Virus record (IMG/VR): IMGVR_UViG_3300042866_001626
Coordinates: 1-21,444 of that record
Reading direction: 5' to 3' (one strand)
Source of the DNA: a virus
Length of the DNA stretch: 21,444 bases
The notes below the pieces were generated by a model that saw only the letters and a program-made list of their open reading frames with translations, was not told where the DNA came from and did not search any database. Positions 5,041-18,415 of this stretch are shown one piece after another; the stretch's first letter is position 1; every line of letters starts with the position of its first letter. The position numbers and the translations under genes are program-made.

Positions 5041-6894
5041 ATGTCAAGAGTTTTTTCTTCAAACAAAGGTATTCGTCGTTACGGAATTCAATTCCCAGAA
5101 AACATGGATGATCTTGGTATTGAGTTATACTGCTACGCTATAAGCCGAGGCGAGTATGGAAAAGACTATTGCACCAAACAAAATATAAATCTGTCAGATT
5201 TTAAATTACTCTCACCACACGAACACTTCATTAATGCCGTCAAACTCCAATGGCCGACTGAAGTTTCTATCGTTAATCGTGGTTACACCAATACCCAGTT
5301 GTTAAGGACGCTTGAAGAACTTTGTAATAATCAAGACATTTGTTTGGCCGGAGCTGCCTCGATGGGTAAATCCTTTCCAGTTGGATTATGGGTCTATCTT
5401 GATTGGTGCGCTGCACCGCATTGCACTTCATCTTGGGTGGCTACTACTACATTGGGCGCGTCCGAGGATCGTATTTGGGGTATCATCTCCAAGTTATGGA
5501 AGTCTGCTCGCGTTCAGTTTGGCAAGCTCATCGACTATCGCCACATGATTGTTTGGGGTGGCGCGTCTAACGATGAGGATAAAGATTATCGTAATGCGAT
5601 AAAAGCTCTCGCGTTCCAATCTGGTAATGAGGGTCAGAAGGCTATTGATACCACCCGTGGTCGTAAGAATGATCGTATTAGATTGGCACTTGATGAGTTG
5701 CCAGAAATGGAGTTGGGCGCGATTACTGCCAAGGTCAACTTATCCGCTAACAACGATGTGACATTTATCGGTATCGGAAACCCATCTGCTGGTGACAATC
5801 CTCACACTCGTTGGGCAATGCCTAAAGGTGCTTCTAACTTTGATGCAGTGAATCCAGATATGGATAAGTGGGAGACTGAGACTGGCGTTTGCTTGTTCTA
5901 CAATGGTATGCGTAGCCCTAACTTCGCTGCGCCTGCCAATGAACCTTCTCCATTCCCTTTCTTGATGGATCGCAAGAAACAAGAGATCATGCTCAAGCAG
6001 TGTTACGGAGATGAGAATGCTATCGACTATGTTCGTAACGCGATTGGTTGGTGGCCGAAGTCGGGATTTGCTCAGACTATTCTTACTGCCGACTTGATCC
6101 GTAATGCTGATACGAACGAAGAGCCACTTTGGGATTCAGAAGGATTTACCAAGGTTGCTGGATTCGATACTGCGTTTACAGTTGGCGGTGACCGATGCGT
6201 TCTGACTATCGCTAAGTTAGGATATGTGCGCGGGACTCGTAATCGTGTGATGTGGTTGGAAGATCAGAAGATTATCCAGTTATCCGCTAACGCCGCTGCC
6301 GAGTTTGAAATTCAGTTGGCTACTGAAGTTGTTGGGTTCTGTAGAACTGCTGGAGTTCAACCATCCAAGTTTGGTATGGACGTGTCCGGTGATGGTGGTC
6401 GAGTTGGACAAGCTATCATTCGTGAGTGGCTACGCTTTGACGCTGGCGGCGCGGCAATCGCTCTTATCTCATCTATGGGTAAACCTACCGATCGAATCGC
6501 AGCAGAGGTAGATAAACGCCCGTGTAAGGATGTTTATGATAGGCTTGTATCTGAGTATTGGTATTCGGCCTATCATGGATTCAAGAGTCGAGTTCTATTC
6601 GGCGTTGCACCATCATCTGATTTGTCGAGGGAACTTTGCCTGCGCCGATACACCATTAAGTCCAAGAAGATTTCCGTAGAAACCAAAGATGACTTCAAGG
6701 GTAGGACTGGGTTCTCACCCGACTTGGCAGATAGTTATCTTTACTGCCTCGAAATGGCGCGGCGTAATGGACTCGTTTTTATCGGAAACGATAAACCAGT
6801 TCCAACTAACCGATTTTGGGCGCGAGATGAAAAGCCAGTTGAATCATTCTCTGATGACGACGCTTACTCATCAGATGATAATGGAGATTGGTAA
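5041..6894 (+). CDS. terL: Terminase large subunit (packaging ATPase and nuclease)
   Basis: A 617-aa DNA-packaging motor. The Walker A-like loop is GAASMGKS at residues 104-111, and Walker B is LALDE at 215-219 with the catalytic Glu 219. The C-terminal RNase H-like nuclease shows its acidic residues in VAGFDTAF (D376), FGMDVSGDGG (D447) and GFSPDLADSY (D561, D564). The length is normal for the family. The frame is open upstream, but the ATG at 5041 is chosen because the upstream part is antisense to the Cys-pair gene and reads as low-quality protein; codons after 5041 look native. No clear Shine-Dalgarno is present. Unusually, it is transcribed away from the portal, and the probable small subunit is 13 kb off on the opposite strand. 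A dispersed operator-like palindrome lies inside its 3' end at 6779-6794. Confidence 0.93.
   Translation: MSRVFSSNKGIRRYGIQFPENMDDLGIELYCYAISRGEYGKDYCTKQNINLSDFKLLSPHEHFINAVKLQWPTEVSIVNRGYTNTQLLRTLEELCNNQDICLAGAASMGKSFPVGLWVYLDWCAAPHCTSSWVATTTLGASEDRIWGIISKLWKSARVQFGKLIDYRHMIVWGGASNDEDKDYRNAIKALAFQSGNEGQKAIDTTRGRKNDRIRLALDELPEMELGAITAKVNLSANNDVTFIGIGNPSAGDNPHTRWAMPKGASNFDAVNPDMDKWETETGVCLFYNGMRSPNFAAPANEPSPFPFLMDRKKQEIMLKQCYGDENAIDYVRNAIGWWPKSGFAQTILTADLIRNADTNEEPLWDSEGFTKVAGFDTAFTVGGDRCVLTIAKLGYVRGTRNRVMWLEDQKIIQLSANAAAEFEIQLATEVVGFCRTAGVQPSKFGMDVSGDGGRVGQAIIREWLRFDAGGAAIALISSMGKPTDRIAAEVDKRPCKDVYDRLVSEYWYSAYHGFKSRVLFGVAPSSDLSRELCLRRYTIKSKKISVETKDDFKGRTGFSPDLADSYLYCLEMARRNGLVFIGNDKPVPTNRFWARDEKPVESFSDDDAYSSDDNGDW
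6779..6794. promoter_or_regulatory. Dispersed operator site 2 inside terL: TTATCGGAAACGATAA
   Basis: An exact match to TTATCG-N4-CGATAA lying within terminase codons for F-I-G-N-D-K. The identical 16-mer recurs at 9970-9985 in the helicase gene in a different reading frame, so protein conservation cannot explain it. Confidence 0.7.
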
Positions 6895-7464: not shown

Positions 7465-7637
7465 CGAAAGTATTCAGTTAGCTCTTTTAAGCCTTTAGCA
7501 GCGTCAATCGGATTGTCGTATTCTAATTTGACGGGGAAAGGTTTTCCTCGTTCGTGCATGGGGGTTGGTCTTCCTGCTGCGTATGGACTGACTTTGAGAA
7601 CGTATAAGCCCTCTTCGGCTTCGATGAAGACGTGCAT
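7401..7637 (-). CDS. Small hypothetical protein overlapping the HTH gene
   Basis: A 78-aa protein with a beta-strand start (MHVFIEAEEGLYVLKVSPYA) and a helical end (DNPIDAAKGLKELTEYFRC). It reads like a real small domain, but its first 115 bases overlap the 3' end of the HTH regulator gene in another frame and its last 64 overlap the HNH gene. Long same-strand overlaps occur in compact phages. The alternative is that one of the two reading frames in 7523-7637 is not used. The HTH domain proper ends before this overlap, so both can be functional. Confidence 0.55.
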   Translation of the reverse strand: MHVFIEAEEGLYVLKVSPYAAGRPTPMHERGKPFPVKLEYDNPIDAAKGLKELTEYFRCYEEKRHLKPKRGSKNEVAS

Positions 7638-7879
7638 AATTCGATGACCTTATCTACTTGTTCTTTTTTTAAAATGCTTTTGGAGTTTACTTCGATCTGG
7701 TTGATGAGTGATCCAGTAACGCCGATCTTGTCACCAAGTTCACGGACAGTCAATTTCAATGCTCGCCGTGTCTCGCGGAGTTGGTTAGCGAAAGTCTTGC
7801 GTCCAAGAGAACGAACTGTGCGTGATTGCTCGTAGGCACTCATGCAAGTTTCATAAGCAGTTTCTAATGGATGTTTCAT
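7523..7879 (-). CDS. HTH (XRE/Cro-CI type) transcriptional regulator
   Basis: A 118-aa protein with an N-terminal helical segment (about 1-30) and an XRE-type helix-turn-helix at 34-88: LRETRRALKLTVRELGDKIGVTGSLINQIEVNSKSILKKE is written here only as its key parts, LTVRELGDKIGV (helix 2) and GSLINQIEV (recognition helix). The tail is polar and may be poorly structured. The start at 7879 is preferred over an upstream ATG at 7912, because the latter lies inside the predicted minus-strand promoter. It faces the 125-aa plus-strand gene across a palindrome that carries both -35 boxes, the classic layout of an autoregulated phage switch. Its DNA target is most likely that palindrome; whether it also binds the dispersed TTATCG sites is unknown. 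Confidence 0.8.
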   Translation of the reverse strand: MKHPLETAYETCMSAYEQSRTVRSLGRKTFANQLRETRRALKLTVRELGDKIGVTGSLINQIEVNSKSILKKEQVDKVIELCTSSSKPKRAYTFSKSVHTQQEDQPPCTNEENLSPSN

Positions 7880-7888
7880 TTCAGAGAA

Positions 7889-7917
7889 AAAATAAACCAG
7901 AACTATTGACAAGTCAA
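7889..7917 (-). promoter_or_regulatory. Promoter of the HTH regulator (near-leaderless)
   Basis: On the minus strand, TTGACT (7917-7912), 17 bases, then TATTTT (7894-7889). Initiation about seven bases on would fall two or three bases before the ATG at 7879, giving an almost leaderless transcript. Confidence 0.6.
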
Positions 7918-7919
7918 TA
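7904..7919. promoter_or_regulatory. Operator palindrome in the divergent switch: TATTGACAAGTCAATA
   Basis: Arms TATTGAC and GTCAATA are separated by AA. The left arm holds the -35 of the rightward promoter and the right arm holds the -35 of the leftward promoter, so one bound dimer could control both. It probably binds the adjacent HTH regulator; this is inference from position. Confidence 0.65.
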
Positions 7920-7934
7920 CTTTTTTGTTACTAT
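7906..7934 (+). promoter_or_regulatory. Rightward sigma70-type promoter, near-leaderless
   Basis: TTGACA (7906-7911), a 17-base spacer and TACTAT (7929-7934). The expected start near 7941 is only a few bases before the ATG at 7943. Confidence 0.75.
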
Positions 7935-7942
7935 GGTTGCTT

Positions 7943-8320
7943 ATGGATAACACTAACAAAATCAAAGACAACGCAGAAAAATTACTTGCTGGAGTAAGGC
8001 AAACTGTCATGGTTACGAATATGTCTTTAGCCGCCGCGCTGGAGACCCCGTTCATGGCTACCTACGAAAATGATGACGGCATTCTCGTCATGGCACTGAG
8101 AGCTAACAACACAGCTATTCTTGCGGCAACTGGCAATAACAGTAATACTGTCATCAAGGCAGATATTATCATAACAAACGAAGGTATCGGTGAACGCCGC
8201 TCCATCTTCCAGTGCGAGACAGAAGAAGATGCCAGTCAAATCTGGGACTTACTCAACGACAAAATGTATGAGTGGTCGAAGGGTGAAGTTGAGCAGGTTG
8301 AAATGGACTGGTTATCGTAA
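7943..8320 (+). CDS. Hypothetical protein, first gene of the rightward operon
   Basis: A 125-aa acidic protein. The start at 7943 (MDNTNKIKDNAEK) is chosen because an upstream in-frame ATG lies inside the -10 region. The N-terminus is helical, the middle is beta-rich (GILVMALRANNTAILAATG, then VIKADIIITNEG) and the end is acidic and helical (ASQIWDLLNDKMYEW). No known motif is seen. As the gene opposite the HTH regulator it occupies the place of a Cro-like or anti-repressor gene, but it shows no helix-turn-helix. Its stop codon lies within dispersed operator site 3. Confidence 0.75.
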   Translation: MDNTNKIKDNAEKLLAGVRQTVMVTNMSLAAALETPFMATYENDDGILVMALRANNTAILAATGNNSNTVIKADIIITNEGIGERRSIFQCETEEDASQIWDLLNDKMYEWSKGEVEQVEMDWLS

Positions 8321-8327
8321 CCGATAA
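8312..8327. promoter_or_regulatory. Dispersed operator site 3: TTATCGTAACCGATAA
   Basis: An exact match to TTATCG-N4-CGATAA. It contains the stop codon of the 125-aa gene and lies nine bases upstream of the -35 box of the replication-operon promoter at 8337, the best placed of all copies to regulate transcription. Confidence 0.75.
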
Positions 8328-8336
8328 AAAAGATGC

Positions 8337-8365
8337 TTGACATCGAACACAACCTATAGTAGTTT
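8337..8365 (+). promoter_or_regulatory. Promoter of the replication operon
   Basis: TTGACA (8337-8342), 17 bases, TAGTTT (8360-8365). The -10 is weak (three of six consensus bases), but the -35 is perfect and a structured leader follows directly. Confidence 0.6.
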
Positions 8366-8370
8366 TCTCT

Positions 8371-8406
8371 TGTGCGAGAAATTGCACATCCGGGGTGAAG
8401 GCCGGA
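8371..8406 (+). ncRNA. Two tandem hairpins at the 5' end of the leader
   Basis: TGTGC...GCACA (8371-8388) and TCCGG...CCGGA (8389-8406) abut each other and begin at about the expected transcription start. They could protect the 5' end or form part of a regulatory leader. No known riboswitch class was recognised. Confidence 0.4.
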
Positions 8407-8440
8407 TTCAAGATAGAAATTAAATTAACAAACAAACTAT

Positions 8441-8521
8441 ATGATCCCTTGTGGTGGTAATCCACCTTCATGCGTCAGTTGCCGCTTTCTATCGCCACTA
8501 CAAGGGGTCGCCTTTTTCTAA
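8441..8521 (+). CDS. 26-residue leader peptide / upstream ORF
   Basis: ATG at 8441, stop at 8519-8521, one base before the next ATG at 8523. The peptide begins MIPCGGNPPSCVSC, with cysteines spaced C-x6-C-x2-C, and ends GVAFF. There is no evident Shine-Dalgarno. Its coding sequence also forms both arms of a terminator-like hairpin, so translation of it would interfere with that hairpin. It could instead be a tiny zinc-binding protein or be untranslated. Confidence 0.4.
   Translation: MIPCGGNPPSCVSCRFLSPLQGVAFF
8443..8518 (+). terminator. Attenuator-like terminator hairpin with competing inner hairpin
   Basis: GATCCCTTGTGGTGG (8443-8457) pairs over 15 positions, with two G-U pairs, to CCACTACAAGGGGTC (8495-8509), followed by GCCTTTTTCT. 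The same GGTGG can instead pair locally with CCACC (8453-8466). It lies between the promoter and the winged-helix gene, so it could gate read-through into the replication genes. Confidence 0.6.
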
Positions 8522-8522
8522 A

Positions 8523-8837
8523 ATGAAAAAATATGACGATTGTCCAATACGGGCAAAAAACGGGATAATGATTAAACGCAAAATATATCGCATTGATGGA
8601 TTAACTCCGCTGCAACGAGAATTATTAGCATACATTGAAAATTGGGATCGCGGATGTGTAAATGATAAAGACTATTTGGCCTTTTCTTTTGGTGTATCAA
8701 AAAAAAGTATAAACTCCGCATTAGATTGCTTGGCAGCAAGAGATCTTATTTATGCTCAAAAAAATCGTGATGAAGTAAAAATATTCTGCAACATCAATTA
8801 TATTAATGATGTTTATGGGGAGGGCATCGAATTATGA
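8523..8837 (+). CDS. Winged-helix DNA-binding protein, replication operon
   Basis: A 104-aa protein. Residues about 25-95 look like a winged helix: LTPLQRELLAYIENW (helix 1), NDKDYLAFSFGVSKKSINSAL (helices 2-3, recognition) and RDLIYAQKNRDEVKIF (wing). A longer in-frame start at 8451 (GTG) is rejected because it would read through the terminator hairpin. Its stop overlaps the next ATG as ATGA, and the leader peptide stop is one base before its start. G+C is about a third, lower than the next genes. It may be a regulator or a partner of the initiator; the family is not identified. Confidence 0.7.
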   Translation: MKKYDDCPIRAKNGIMIKRKIYRIDGLTPLQRELLAYIENWDRGCVNDKDYLAFSFGVSKKSINSALDCLAARDLIYAQKNRDEVKIFCNINYINDVYGEGIEL

Positions 8838-9562
8838 GCGAGAAGAACGAACGGGTTTTTCGCGGAGTTTGGGTTCCCGTAGAAATATGGGAATCTCAAT
8901 CATTGTCATGGATGGAGAAATGCTTGTGGGCAGAAATCAGTTCTCTTGGGACTGAAGAGAAACCATGCTTTGCAAGTAATGGTTATCTTGCAAGAATGTT
9001 TCACAGCACAGAATCAAGCATCTCAAACATGATTTCAAAATTGAGGTCATTGAAGATGATTAAACAGATTTCTTACGATGGCAGAAGTAGGAAAATTCTT
9101 GCTGTCTTGCCAAGCGGGACTTCATCTACAAGTGAAGTCAGAGTTCACCCACAGGTGAAGTCTGACTCAACCCACAGGTGCAATCAGAGTCAACCTGCTG
9201 GTGAACTCAGACTCAACCCACAGGTGAACATAGATACTAAGGGAGATAATAAAAGAGATACTACAGGAGAATTAACTCTTAATCTCTTAACTTTTCAGCA
9301 ACGAGCAAACCGACTTCTCGGAAGACGCGATACTACAAACTGGACACCAAAAGAAATTAAGGCAGCTAAACCAAACCTCGATACCTGTGAAGAAGACTGG
9401 AAGTTACTCGAAAACTTCTATTCCAAACGAAACGAAAAAGACGTTTACACTCGCCGCTCAATGGAAACCCTCCTTAACAACTGGGCTGGAGAGATAGACA
9501 AAGCTCGCGCCCACAAAGAAAGTGAGAGTCAAATGGGTTTCTTTAACAACAATTCATTCTAA
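8834..9562 (+). CDS. Replication initiator-like protein with N-terminal winged helix; gene carries the origin iterons
   Basis: A 242-aa protein. Residues about 8-95 form an HTH_36-like winged helix: FRGVWVPVEIW, MEKCLWAEISSL, CFASNGYLARMF, ESSISNMISKLRSLKMI and ISYDGRSRKI. Residues 100-130 are a low-complexity linker encoded by four tandem 23-bp repeats, and because 23 is not a multiple of three each repeat is read in a different frame. A C-terminal domain (about 145-230) holds a TPKEIKAAK...EEDWKLLENFYSKRN helical region, probably for helicase contact. This is the organisation of lambda O and P22 gene 18, where the origin lies inside the initiator gene and the helicase-related gene follows. 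The stop overlaps the start of the DnaB-like gene. Confidence 0.8.
   Translation: MSEKNERVFRGVWVPVEIWESQSLSWMEKCLWAEISSLGTEEKPCFASNGYLARMFHSTESSISNMISKLRSLKMIKQISYDGRSRKILAVLPSGTSSTSEVRVHPQVKSDSTHRCNQSQPAGELRLNPQVNIDTKGDNKRDTTGELTLNLLTFQQRANRLLGRRDTTNWTPKEIKAAKPNLDTCEEDWKLLENFYSKRNEKDVYTRRSMETLLNNWAGEIDKARAHKESESQMGFFNNNSF
9132..9223. repeat. Four tandem 23-bp iterons (probable replication origin)
   Basis: Units at 9132-9154, 9155-9177, 9178-9200 and 9201-9223 abut exactly. Each begins GTG; three begin GTGAA and end CCCACAG, and the third is the most diverged (GTGCA...CTGCTG). Units 2 and 4 share GACTCAACCCACAG. A degenerate GTGAACATAGA follows. Iterons in this position bind the initiator encoded by the same gene in lambdoid phages. 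Confidence 0.85.
9224..9300. other. AT-rich segment beside iterons (candidate DNA unwinding element)
   Basis: About 31% G+C over 77 bases immediately after the fourth iteron. Lambda ori has the same order: iterons, then an AT-rich tract that melts first. Here the tract is still coding within the initiator. Confidence 0.55.
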
Positions 9563-10794
9563 TGAAAAAAGTCCCAATAGCACGAAAGAGTGAAGTGGCA
9601 GCGTTGTCACTCATCGCAATCGACAGAAACATCCTTTCCCAACAAACATGGGATAGCGATTATTTCGCCATACCAGCCAACAGAATCGTTTTTAATGCGC
9701 TCCAAGGGGTTCACCAGCGGACAGGTTCTTGCTGCCCGTTTTCTGCCATAGCAGAGCTTGAGGCAACTGGTCAGTTGGAAGCAGCGGGTGGCGAGGATGC
9801 GATTCACGAAATGTTCGCTACGATGAAGGTAGCTTCTGGAAAGGTTTGCCAAGATATGGCAGATGACTACCGGAAGCATCTTCACCGCACGAAGGCATAC
9901 CGCGATGTTCTGATCCTCATGGAGAAGGAAGAGCCAAACCTACGGACAGGCAAAGCAAATCTGAAGGAATTATCGGAAACGATAATGAAGTGTGCCGAGG
10001 ATCGCACATCAAAAGTGAAACCAGTCAAAGACCTCATCATCGAAATCATTGATGAGATGGAAGGAAAAGCAGTAAAAGATTTTTACCCTACTGGACTCCT
10101 CAAAGTAGATCGTGCGCTCAAAGGTGGAATGCACAAAGGCGAGATGATGACAGTAGCATCAGAGACAGGTGGAGGAAAATCAATCTATCTTGTGCAAGCG
10201 GCACTCGCAAATCTACTGGAAGGAAAGTCAGTTCTGTTCTTCAGCCTCGAAATGAAAGCGAAGGACATCCTAACTCGCATGGCTTGCAACATCGCTGGTT
10301 ATCCGATTAGAGAACCGGAGGATTACAAGACCGCAAACAAAGACGAACTCGCCAAAATCAGTGGCGCATTGTTAAAATTACACCAGTTACCCCTTGAAAT
10401 CGTGGATGGAATAGCCGAAATTGACGAGATAGAGTGCCATATAAATCGGTATACGGGGGAAAATCGGGCAGATATTATCGTGGTAGATTACCTCCAAATC
10501 ATCGCATTTGATGGTGCAGAAGGCAGAGAAAGCCAGATTTCTGAGATAGCAAGACGCTTAAAGGTAGCTGCGCTCAAGAATAACTCGATTATGCTGACTG
10601 CTTCCCAGCTTAACGACGAAGGAAGACTACGCGAATCACGGGCAATAGGGATGCACTCTGACCAAGTTGTGTATATCGAACACAAGGGAGACAAGAGCAG
10701 GTTGACAATCAAGAAGAACCGCCGTGGTCAGAGGAACTATTCTACGGAAATCATCATGCGCGGTGACATCTCAAGACTTGAGGAGGTTTACTAA
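9562..10794 (+). CDS. dnaB: DnaB-family replicative helicase
   Basis: A 410-aa hexameric 5'-3' helicase of the RecA-fold DnaB family. The N-terminal helical domain covers about 1-120, with a linker helix to about 175. The motor shows Walker A SETGGGKS (200-207), a FFSLEM strand-helix (226-231), Walker B IIVVDYLQI with D309, the TASQLND sensor (347-352) and the KKNRRGQ arginine-finger loop (384-390). It is slightly shorter than cellular DnaB (about 470), as is usual for phage versions. It directly follows the iteron-bearing initiator, matching the P22 12 arrangement in which the phage brings its own helicase. A dispersed operator site lies inside at 9970. The stop shares a base with the next ATG. 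Confidence 0.92.
   Translation: MKKVPIARKSEVAALSLIAIDRNILSQQTWDSDYFAIPANRIVFNALQGVHQRTGSCCPFSAIAELEATGQLEAAGGEDAIHEMFATMKVASGKVCQDMADDYRKHLHRTKAYRDVLILMEKEEPNLRTGKANLKELSETIMKCAEDRTSKVKPVKDLIIEIIDEMEGKAVKDFYPTGLLKVDRALKGGMHKGEMMTVASETGGGKSIYLVQAALANLLEGKSVLFFSLEMKAKDILTRMACNIAGYPIREPEDYKTANKDELAKISGALLKLHQLPLEIVDGIAEIDEIECHINRYTGENRADIIVVDYLQIIAFDGAEGRESQISEIARRLKVAALKNNSIMLTASQLNDEGRLRESRAIGMHSDQVVYIEHKGDKSRLTIKKNRRGQRNYSTEIIMRGDISRLEEVY
9970..9985. promoter_or_regulatory. Dispersed operator site 4 inside the helicase gene: TTATCGGAAACGATAA
   Basis: Identical over 16 bases to the site in terL, but read here as L-S-E-T-I rather than F-I-G-N-D. The difference in frame argues for selection on the DNA itself. 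Confidence 0.7.
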
Positions 10795-13365: not shown

Positions 13366-13568
13366 GTATCCCGCAATTCCTTTTTATCTATGCCAAAGAA
13401 GGTAAGGTAAGATGCTTAACGCCAGATGAAGCGCACAGAGAAACCTTAACAGGTAAAGGATGGACGCACACAGCAACCATTAACCCCGCAAGATGGATTG
13501 AAGCTATGGCAAATGGCGATCAAGACCCATCAGATATGTTAGATGAAATTCAATTTAAAAAACCATGA
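13362..13568 (+). CDS. Small hypothetical protein, 68 aa
   Basis: ATGA overlaps at both ends. The sequence reads FLFIYAKEGKVRCLTPDEA, TGKGWTHTATINPARWIEAM and SDMLDEIQFKKP: a short beta hairpin followed by a helix ending in acidic residues. It lies between the zinc-ribbon gene and the glycosyltransferase. The family is not recognised. Confidence 0.7.
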   Translation: MSIPQFLFIYAKEGKVRCLTPDEAHRETLTGKGWTHTATINPARWIEAMANGDQDPSDMLDEIQFKKP

Positions 13569-14692
13569 GTATCGTAAACGATAAATTCCGCTTCCATATC
13601 CTCGGCTTGCCTCACACAGTAAGTTCCAAGGAGTTTAATGCCTGTGCCTATACCCAAAAAGTGGTGAAGTTCGGGAAGATGATGACCCAGCGCGGCCATG
13701 AAGTAATCCACTACGGACACGAAGATTCAGACCTGATCTGCACAGAACACGTCCCTGTTCTAACAAACGATGACTTCAACAAAAGCTACGGATCACATGA
13801 CTGGAGGAAGACATTCTTCAAGTTCAATACGAATGACCACGCCTATCAAACCTTCTACCGAAATGCGATTAAGGCAATCGGGCAGCGTAAGAAGAAAAAC
13901 GACTTCATTCTCCCATTCTGGGGAAGCGGAGTAAGACCAATCTGTGACGCGCATCCTGACCTAATCACAGTTGAGCCGGGCATTGGGTATGCTGGTGGAC
14001 ATTGGGCGCGGTGGAAAGTATTTGAATCCTACGCAATCTACCATGCGTTCTGTGGAATGCAGGCAGTAGGTAATTGCCAGCAAGATAACTATGCCGTGGT
14101 AATCCCCAACTACTTTGATAAAGAAGACTTCGACTTCTGTGACCAGAAAGAAGATTACTTTCTATATCTGGGTAGGGTATACTCTGGAAAAGGTGTAGAT
14201 ATTGCCATTGAAGCTACCTACCGAGCGGGAGTTAAACTGGTCATAGCAGGCCAAAAAGAGGAAGGTTACAAGTTACCAGACCATGTTCACTATGTAGGAT
14301 ACGCCGATGTTTCTACCAGAAAGAGGCTCATGTCGAGGGCCAAAGCATCCTTCCTACCAAGTCAGTATGTAGAACCATTCGGTGGAGTCCAAATAGAAAA
14401 CCTACTCTCTGGCACTCCAACAATTACATCTGATTGGGGTAGTTTCACTGAAAACAACCTACATGGAATAACAGGATTCCGATGCCGCACGATGGGAGAT
14501 TACGTAGATGCTATCAAGAATATCGACCGGATCTGCCCATACGACTGCCACCGATTCGGAAAGAACTTCACCTTGGAGCGAGTAGCACCCATGTATGAGA
14601 AATACTTCTCAGATGTCATGGATGTCTATACCGGAGACGGGTGGTATTCCAAAGGAAACGACATCGAAGCCATGAACAGATACTATCCATGA
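13565..14692 (+). CDS. Glycosyltransferase, GT-B fold (family 4-like)
   Basis: A 375-aa protein. The N-terminal Rossmann-like half (about 10-180) begins FRFHILGLPHT and holds a GHEVIHYGHE strand-turn. The C-terminal nucleotide-sugar-binding half begins YFLYLGRVYSGKGVDIAIEA (about 198-217), then KLVIAGQ, and contains the GT4 donor-binding segment SQYVEPFGGVQIENLLSGTP (266-285) with E270 and E278, and SDWGSFTE. The substrate is unknown. In phages such enzymes modify modified bases, virion proteins or host surface sugars. Gene order next to a dCMP-type deaminase hints at nucleotide or DNA modification, but no base-hypermodification enzyme is seen here. Operator-like site 5 overlaps codons 2-7. 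Confidence 0.85.
   Translation: MSIVNDKFRFHILGLPHTVSSKEFNACAYTQKVVKFGKMMTQRGHEVIHYGHEDSDLICTEHVPVLTNDDFNKSYGSHDWRKTFFKFNTNDHAYQTFYRNAIKAIGQRKKKNDFILPFWGSGVRPICDAHPDLITVEPGIGYAGGHWARWKVFESYAIYHAFCGMQAVGNCQQDNYAVVIPNYFDKEDFDFCDQKEDYFLYLGRVYSGKGVDIAIEATYRAGVKLVIAGQKEEGYKLPDHVHYVGYADVSTRKRLMSRAKASFLPSQYVEPFGGVQIENLLSGTPTITSDWGSFTENNLHGITGFRCRTMGDYVDAIKNIDRICPYDCHRFGKNFTLERVAPMYEKYFSDVMDVYTGDGWYSKGNDIEAMNRYYP
13569..13584. promoter_or_regulatory. Dispersed operator site 5 at the glycosyltransferase start: GTATCGTAAACGATAA
   Basis: One mismatch (first base) to TTATCG-N4-CGATAA. It starts two bases after the ATG of the glycosyltransferase gene. Its place at a gene start favours a regulatory meaning, although one mismatch makes it weaker than the exact copies. 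Confidence 0.55.
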
Positions 14693-15939: not shown

Positions 15940-16217
15940 ACAGCATCCTCGAAACAGCAATTGAAGTAACAACAGGCGACCGTCGCCGCGACTACGATAA
16001 AGCCACACCAAACCATAAAAGAATAGCAGATGGATGGAACTGGTATATAGCATCCCGCAAAGACCCAAATGCCCCACTCTCAGCCTTGGACGTAGCACAC
16101 ATGATGATTATTCTAAAATTAGCAAGAGCGTGCTACACCCCAACACGGGATACCTATGTAGATATAGCAGGATACGCTAAGTGTGCTTCTCAAATATCAA
16201 AATTTGAAGATGAGTAA
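15936..16217 (+). CDS. DUF6378-like phage protein
   Basis: A 93-aa protein. The pattern LETAIEVTTGDRRRDYDKA...NHKRIADGWNWYI...LSALDVAHMMIILKLAR...DTYVDIAGYAKCA matches a widespread small phage family I recall as DUF6378 (number from memory). The shape, with conserved G-D-R-x-x-x-Y, N-H, D-V-x-x-M-M and D-x-A-G-Y, recalls an all-alpha nucleotide-handling protein such as the MazG-like group, but this is speculation. It is the last gene of the early block, and operator-like site 6 begins at its stop. Confidence 0.8.
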   Translation: MNSILETAIEVTTGDRRRDYDKATPNHKRIADGWNWYIASRKDPNAPLSALDVAHMMIILKLARACYTPTRDTYVDIAGYAKCASQISKFEDE

Positions 16218-16233
16218 TTATCGGTAACGATAA
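16218..16233. promoter_or_regulatory. Dispersed operator site 6: TTATCGGTAACGATAA
   Basis: An exact match to TTATCG-N4-CGATAA, directly after the stop codon of the DUF6378-like gene and at the head of the long repeat-rich region. It is followed by TATAGG, much as site 1 is followed by TATTTA. Confidence 0.75.
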
Positions 16234-16775
16234 TATAGGTCAACGTAACTGCATGGGAGCGAAGTATAGATATACGCATTACTAAAAATAGCAGTTTTTC
16301 TAAGGAGAGGGGTTTTCCGCATTGGGAGTTACGCGCACGGGGTGCATGGGGTAGAGGGGTGATGGCATCGCCGCTCCATAAGAAAAGAGATTCCTTGGAG
16401 TCCCGCGGCCCGCCTATGCTCACAGCGCCCCTGCTTAGTACAGTCTCACAGCGTGGCAGCGTGCAGCGTGGTGCATAGTATATATGATGAGTGATGACAA
16501 GCCGAGCCGATTGCCAATGATGTCTGGCTTATTGAGACTCAAAAAGCGTCGGGACTTATTACTGATATTATCAGAATATATTATTCTCAATAAGAAGATG
16601 AAATAATGCAAGCAAGTTGCAATAATCTTTGCGCGAGGTTGGCGTAGGATTGCGTTGATTGAATAGAGCGGGGCTATGCTATGGGGTGAAAATGGGTGCA
16701 ATCGCACTTTCGAGCGATGACCAGAAAACCGATTCCATCATGGCGAGAATTACAAAGCCATACGCAATATGGCAA

Positions 16776-16877
16776 ATATCGCTGTTTGGCGATATAACGA
16801 TTTGGCGATATAATATCCAATGAACATATCTTCATATCATGATATGTTGATCTGACTCTATCGCTGTATGGCTATAT
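16776..16877. repeat. TTTGGCGATATAA-type repeat cluster
   Basis: ATATCGC-TGTTTG-GCGATAT (16776-16795) is a perfect 7-bp inverted repeat. TTTGGCGATATAA occurs twice (about 16785-16797 and 16801-16813), and a related ATCGCTGTATGGCTATATA follows at about 16859. The cluster lies 55-150 bases upstream of the promoter at 16932, which suggests regulator binding sites or iterons. Confidence 0.5.
16833..16846. repeat. Perfect 14-bp palindrome CATATCATGATATG
   Basis: It lies within the repeat cluster and is flanked on the left by another CATATC. It is a probable dimeric-protein site, 86 bases upstream of a -35 box. Confidence 0.5.
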
Positions 16878-16931
16878 AGCAGTGGCACGCGATTTGCTTA
16901 TACCTTTTTTTATTTTGTCAAAAAAAATCTG

Positions 16932-16959
16932 TTGACATATTCGCACAATGTAGTATCTT
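16932..16959 (+). promoter_or_regulatory. Promoter of the accessory cassette
   Basis: TTGACA (16932-16937), 16 bases, TATCTT (16954-16959). TAGTAT just upstream of the -10 resembles other -10 boxes here but would be only 13 bases from the -35. A leader with the hairpin AGCCCTTA-GAA-TAAGGCT follows. Confidence 0.6.
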
Positions 16960-17077
16960 GTTTCCCGTGCTGACTGCGGAAGCCCTTAGAATAAGGCTCT
17001 GCGGACTGAATCACAAATTGATCTTTGACTAAAAAAACTTTTCGCTCCTGTCTTTTGATAGTGTGCGAATCAATCCA

Positions 17078-17188
17078 ATGAATAAGCAAACCTATGCGTT
17101 AAGGATCAAACTTGCTTCTATGACGGACGCAAAAAAAATCCATGCGCTCAGACTAAAAATCCAACAACTCGAACAAAAGAAAAAATGA
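17078..17188 (+). CDS. Small basic peptide, 36 aa
   Basis: ATG at 17078, stop overlapping the next ATG at 17185. It is basic and helical throughout: MNKQTYALRIKLASMTDAKK, then LRLKIQQLEQKKK. The frame ends exactly at an ATGA junction, which supports real translation and coupling to the 89-aa gene. It could be a leader peptide for that gene or a functional small protein. Confidence 0.5.
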   Translation: MNKQTYALRIKLASMTDAKKIHALRLKIQQLEQKKK

Positions 17189-18222: not shown

Positions 18223-18415
18223 CCTCTTACGCATTGCGGGTTTCGTCCGATCCGATCCCGCTTTGCCCTATTTGCCCCGCATCCTCTCTTTTATTCTCTC
18301 TCCGCTACTATGCCATTCCTCTTTTCTTTCGCGCATTCTTGCGGCTTTGATCGTTTCCGATAATCCCTCCACACTGATTTTCCCTCCACAACGCCAAACC
18401 ATAACACAACACAAC
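18223..18415 (+). other. 193-base leader region with operator and repeat motifs
   Basis: A C/T-rich stretch without a gene. It holds dispersed operator site 7 (18348-18363) and two CCCTCCACA motifs (18365-18373, 18382-18390), then a CA-rich, Shine-Dalgarno-free leader (ACACAACACAAC) before the ATG at 18416. Confidence 0.6.
18348..18363. promoter_or_regulatory. Dispersed operator site 7: TGATCGTTTCCGATAA
   Basis: One mismatch (second base) to TTATCG-N4-CGATAA. Read on the other strand, its core TTATCGGAAACGAT equals the first 14 bases of sites 2 and 4. It is intergenic, 52 bases before a start codon. Confidence 0.55.

Follow-up and report, generated by a model that had tools for sequence, protein, structure and literature searches.

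In the window, i.e. the 21,444-bp virus record that was analysed over its whole length, positions 9128-9300 very probably form, as judged from sequence comparison, an initiator-dependent phage replication origin of the theta type, nested in the initiator gene where this gene encodes the linker. Judging from the relatives compared, this origin layout is one case of a large family trait and not an isolated invention. The features of the replication region are the following.

8451-8837, plus strand: small winged-helix protein gene (weak phrog_270 match, E 6.2e-06)
8834-9562, plus strand: replication initiator gene, 242 aa (phrog_270, E 2.3e-11; phrog_2880, E 4.9e-11; AlphaFold2 model)
9128-9150, plus strand: iteron 1, ACAAGTGAAGTCAGAGTTCACCC (dyad 9132-9148)
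9151-9173, plus strand: iteron 2, ACAGGTGAAGTCTGACTCAACCC (dyad 9155-9171)
9174-9196, plus strand: iteron 3, ACAGGTGCAATCAGAGTCAACCT (Tandem Repeats Finder, motif search)
9197-9219, plus strand: iteron 4, GCTGGTGAACTCAGACTCAACCC (dyad 9201-9217)
9220-9228, plus strand: partial fifth unit of 9 bp with one half-site, ACAGGTGAA (Tandem Repeats Finder)
9229-9300, plus strand: A+T-rich candidate unwinding element, 30.6% G+C (base composition, duplex stability)
9232-9270, plus strand: three 12-nt repeats AGATACTAAAGG in the A+T-rich segment (repeat analysis)
9562-10794, plus strand: DnaB-like replicative helicase gene, 410 aa (Pfam DnaB_C, E 5.7e-29; phrog_19, E 5.3e-55)

The iteron array and the adjoining A+T-rich segment

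The stretch 9128-9228 is the top-scoring Tandem Repeats Finder array in the window (period 23, 4.4 copies, 76% matches, 0 indels, score 118), and a repeat search found its units spaced by exactly 23, 23, 23 and 23 bp. With a self-repetition score of 48 it lies above all 1000 shuffles (mean 7.7, maximum 16), and scores of at least 18 recur in the window only for the same array at period 46. The motif GTGAAGTCNGASTYMACC has seven matches at up to 3 mismatches, every one inside the array (expected 0.17). The 23-bp array is beyond chance. A sequence-only reading of the window had described four exactly abutting 23-bp iterons; the spacing holds throughout, but the units are imperfect copies of each other, start at 9128 and are followed by the partial fifth unit. 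Each unit is an imperfect dyad made of a hexamer, a 7-nt spacer and an inverted hexamer, with the consensus GGTGAA-gtcagac-TCAACC, and the consensus of a relative (L024) is a perfect dyad, GGTGAA-gtcagac-TTCACC.

The adjoining segment, previously put at 31% G+C, has that composition over 9229-9300. Its first 44 nt are A-rich on the plus strand and its last 28 nt T-rich, and the 60 bp from 9230 have the lowest calculated duplex stability of 8321-10794 and rank among roughly the least stable 1% of the window. The lambda-like intragenic layout that had been proposed, in which dyad iterons are succeeded by A+T-rich DNA of low stability, is thereby recovered. Relatives also have 12-nt repeats after their arrays. 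The 60 nt behind the array exceed the gene in A+T content at 61 of 62 loci (mean 0.74 vs 0.62), and the post-array segment is significantly periodic at 38 of the 62, with period 12 in 36 of those 38. The motif RATAMW (AATAATACA/AGATACTA type), chosen post hoc after data inspection, averages 3.6 occurrences per locus where 1.1 are expected, while its reverse complement averages just 0.13. It lies in codon frame in 206 of 224 cases; this preference may be forced, because a TAA-rich motif has stop codons in another frame, and the element may also be due to a protein-level cause.

Repeats of this kind could instead be operators at which the replication genes are transcriptionally regulated, by the initiator or by some other repressor of the phage, the origin lying elsewhere. 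We regard this as improbable: the winged-helix/MarR-like fold and the dyad sites, which are typical of operators, would suit it, and separate dispersed palindromes show that the phage uses such sites, but the array begins nearly 300 bp within the initiator gene, and not at a promoter (the best upstream promoter-like match is at 7906-7934), and its family-wide pairing with an A+T-rich 12-nt-repeat segment suits melting better than repression. Autoregulation and origin function are compatible and not mutually exclusive.

The dispersed palindromes are 16 bp long (TTATCGnnnnCGATAA) and are found both in intergenic and intragenic positions, exact at 465-480, 6779-6794, 8312-8327, 9970-9985 and 16218-16233 and with one mismatch at 13569-13584 and 18348-18363 (7 in the window vs 0.05 expected). 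They number 10-13 per genome in the contigs G001, G002 and G004, are absent from G005 and are reminiscent of the dispersed repressor sites known as stoperators; the HTH protein encoded at 7523-7912 on the minus strand is a candidate for binding them.

The longer contigs allow the array to be placed in a wider context, G001 (53,215 bp) covering positions 617-21444 of the window at 99.99% identity. In four contigs of 50-55 kb, no further iteron clusters were found, with only isolated partial motif matches outside the array. An origin in the non-coding 16.2-17.1 kb region, with the array as a secondary element, is an option to which we give very little weight: about 950 bp there (16217-17185) lack a convincing ORF and inexact repeats (TATCGCTGTTTGGCGATATA) lie at 16777-16878, but neither G002 nor G004, two diverged relatives that both have the iteron array, shows a DNA match to the region, and the four 50-55 kb contigs contain no 22-23-bp array outside the initiator gene. 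Cumulative GC skew, which the sequence-only reading had suggested as a check, gave no signal at the array: the raw and detrended curves of the four contigs have no consistent extremum there, and in the three longest close relatives no extremum lies at the array, gene direction being a confounder of the skew.

The initiator protein and its family

As had been read from the sequence, the array and the A+T-rich segment lie inside a winged-helix initiator gene that is directly adjoined by a DnaB-like helicase gene (phrog_270, DnaB_C, phrog_19), an arrangement that corresponds to the initiator-helicase module of phages. P22 gene 18/12 and HK97 provide other modules of this type, and in HK544 the annotated O gene likewise precedes a replicative helicase gene. 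The small winged-helix protein gene on the other side shares its last 4 bp with the beginning of the initiator gene; its product was rejected as a duplicate of the initiator domain since BLASTP gave no alignment between the two proteins. Further downstream, 13565-14692 encodes a glycosyltransferase that matches phrog_3408, a phage auxiliary gene family, very strongly (E 4e-190), and a dCMP deaminase gene comes after it.

The AlphaFold2 model of the initiator comprises a confident winged-helix domain (residues ~10-92), a low-confidence linker encoded by the array (residues ~96-141), which is predicted to be disordered, and a helical C-terminal domain (residues ~143-238). In the structural comparison, the N-terminal part matched RepA_N initiator domains best (4pql at Z 10.1 across 103 residues, 4pt7 at Z 9.8), with other winged-helix proteins reaching 9.4. 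Besides the whole model, the C-terminal domain was submitted to the fold search on its own; nothing then scored above Z 3.0, and a DnaD-like fold was not detected in this domain.

The window protein has no meaningful Pfam match; a coronavirus spike domain match (E 0.007, below the cut-off) was taken as chance. Phage_rep_O (PF04492) was matched neither by the window protein at E<=0.1 nor by 30 homologs at E<=0.01, RepA_N (PF06970) gave no sequence match in any of these proteins, and HTH_36 was matched by 25 of the 30 homologs. Profile matches to the initiator place the window protein in the phrog_270/phrog_2880 group, with the period-23 array directly behind the winged-helix domain, and none of the Pfam or PHROG families matched by homologs brings a function beyond DNA binding or initiation. 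From these profile searches, the initiator is outside Phage_rep_O and RepA_N as Pfam defines them and is a member of the phrog_270 group, the predicted fold of the phrog_270/HTH_36 group appearing closest to plasmid RepA_N initiators.

The protein had been thought to look unlike lambda O, and this agrees with its position outside the Pfam lambda O family: in an hhalign comparison with a lambda O profile, the alignment is confined to the helix-turn-helix core (38 of 98 columns, 84% probability). This profile was built mostly from phage records, because a Phage_rep_O search of 229 genomes gave just 3 matches. The profile phrog_678 is matched both by lambda O and by relatives of the window protein, which suggests, at the level of sequence profiles, a distant link of the initiator domain to lambda O. 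The further proposal of an independent instance was not borne out in the sense of an isolated one, as the array is a family-wide phrog_270/HTH_36 trait and the domain appears distantly linked to lambda O through phrog_678 and to RepA_N by predicted fold.

Selection on the array and its recurrence in relatives

Selection was examined in 16 distinct close relatives with a gapless alignment, leaving out the helicase columns of the synonymous-rate table, where indels shift some relatives out of frame. From the winged-helix part (0.322) to the array (0.061), synonymous differences fall about fivefold; the A+T-rich part has 0.038 and the C-terminal part 0.256. The nonsynonymous values for these four parts, in the same order, are 0.015, 0.047, 0.082 and 0.037. 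Variable sites at codon positions 1, 2 and 3 number 6, 6 and 45 in the winged-helix part and 7, 5 and 5 in the array, so that variable third positions amount to 45/96 and 5/36 (Fisher p = 5e-4). Selection on the array is, on this codon-level evidence, acting on the DNA and not on the peptide, in line with the sequence-only reading. That reading had also held that the encoded linker differs in every unit; the period of 23 does shift the frame, but unit 4 returns to the frame of unit 1 and the two peptides are similar (SEVRVHPQV vs GELRLNPQV). This similarity, together with the position of the array between two coded domains, could speak for a repetitive linker peptide selected at the protein level. 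Such a reading is hardly credible when the frame shifts with each unit, when the nonsynonymous differences of the array surpass those of the winged-helix part while the synonymous ones collapse, and when 67 of 80 homologs have arrays with a period of 22 or 23.

Stop codons give a second view of this selection. In iteron 3, the consensus TGA would be an in-frame stop and the actual sequence is TGC, and relatives show the same single-base escape. Across the survey, 47 of 65 stop-forming places escape via one base. Some change at such places is imposed by the open reading frame; the telling point is that the remaining motif is kept.

The survey comprised 80 loci from viral contigs and 80 from bacterial or archaeal genome contigs, fetched by the winged-helix profile, and the repeat test was run on 113 non-redundant homologous genes of sufficient length. 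In 80 of the 113, the linker-coding region was more repetitive than any of 60 shuffles of synonymous codons and any of 60 shuffles of bases. The period of these 80 arrays is 23 in 41 and 22 in 26, and is divisible by three in just 7. Period 14 occurs in 5 of the 80; these repeats may be something different, because the listed ones sit further downstream. Array-bearing phrog_270/HTH_36 initiators occur in phages and prophage-like loci across many phyla, and internal 21-24 bp arrays are present in the named phages HU1, Skulduggery, Cruim01, vB_LspM-01 and GJ44. The trait is not universal, since Leptospira phage LE1, which has a good winged-helix match, has no array within its gene.

The form of hexamer, 7-nt spacer and inverted hexamer recurs across 62 arrays, often with a CAG-containing spacer, and the half-sites vary (TATGAA, CGTGAA, CTTAAA and others). 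Mean palindromy is 4.9 against 3.0 in shuffled consensus units, with 45% of single arrays significantly palindromic at 0.05. Iterons that are more alike belong to proteins that are more alike in the recognition helix (partial r 0.31) and in the remainder of the domain (partial r 0.35). Among single columns, residues 65, 84, 82, 81 and 69 lead; 65 lies in the recognition helix and 81-84 lie in the wing. As the rest of the domain correlates about equally, shared ancestry is not separated and would, in these alignments, account for part of the signal. This correlation is what supports a putative initiator-iteron interaction.

The C-terminal domain of the window protein is shared with a distant relative (L021; 68% identity in the winged-helix domain), yet the C-terminal parts of L023 and L024, with winged-helix identities of 81% and 78%, are unrelated to it. 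The breakpoint of the exchange coincides with the array, which is, judging from these alignments, the point of C-terminal domain exchange. In L023 and L024, unrelated sequence replaces the counterpart of window 9229-9562 directly behind the array, and the helicase is still 53-55% identical.

Known systems, proposed mechanism and meaning

Lambda (L214) is alike: midway through its initiator gene it carries four abutting dyad iterons, with an A+T-rich tract following on the same side; intragenic dyad iterons followed by such a tract, compared with the annotated lambda iterons, are the feature that the window shares with the lambda O family. The lambda iterons are 18 bp long (ATCCCTCAAAACGAGGGA) with a spacing of 20-24, whereas the window has constantly spaced 23-bp units with GGTGAA half-sites and a CAGAC-type spacer. 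The origin of lambdoid phages consists of iterons and an A+T-rich tract in mid-O, and unwinding requires no more than two of these iterons together with the tract (PMC7466680); this fits the relatives here that carry just ~2.4 units.

The initiators of pSK41, pTZ2162 and pPR9 are alike in combining a winged-helix N-terminal domain with an exchangeable C-terminal domain. In pSK41, the four Rep boxes occupy a central position within rep, and the central linker encoded by the origin can be deleted (PMC5703833). Semi-palindromic iterons are a further likeness of the RepA_N plasmid group (PMC7145576). The chimeric plasmid pPR9, whose initiator has an N-terminal domain of pfam13730 (HTH_36), replicates autonomously and is a documented case of C-terminal domain exchange of the same kind as here (PMC5703833). 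The window shares with the RepA_N type the central position of the iterons in the gene, where they encode the linker; unlike these plasmid initiators, the window initiator belongs to a phage with its own DnaB-like helicase. Also close are the phrog_270/phrog_2880 initiators of phages such as the five named above, which have a homologous winged-helix domain (31-43% identity), a 21-24-bp array right behind it and A+T-rich repeats next. They differ in the sequence of the iterons, in the C-terminal domain and in what lies downstream, a helicase or a DnaC-like loader.

For the intragenic origin that we favour, the following mechanism can be proposed. The winged-helix domain would bind the 23-bp dyad iterons, probably as one dimer per iteron, and the resulting complex would strain and melt the adjoining segment of A+T-rich 12-nt repeats. 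The helical C-terminal domain would then deliver the DnaB-like helicase of the phage to the opened strands, a step deduced from gene order, given that this domain has no convincing structural match.

A single stretch of DNA would serve as origin and as coding sequence, the iterons passing through all reading frames and yielding bases, mostly singly, where a stop codon would arise. More tentatively, and as a possibility that we hold to be rather less than even, a loosely related and very large class of phage initiators might share one origin grammar (22-23-bp dyad iterons with a 6-nt half-site and a 7-nt spacer, then strand-biased, 12-nt-spaced RATAMW repeats) that is retained while the recognition sequence drifts freely, the 12-nt element being a conserved site for single-strand landing or for melting, whose recognition would not depend on the iteron sequence. 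If true, this element would be comparable in role to DnaA-trios. The succession of a winged-helix initiator, a 22-23-bp array and A+T-rich 12-nt repeats offers a way to find origins in uncultured phages from sequence alone, and the shared 12-nt A+T-rich element could be tested as a candidate melting signal common to them.
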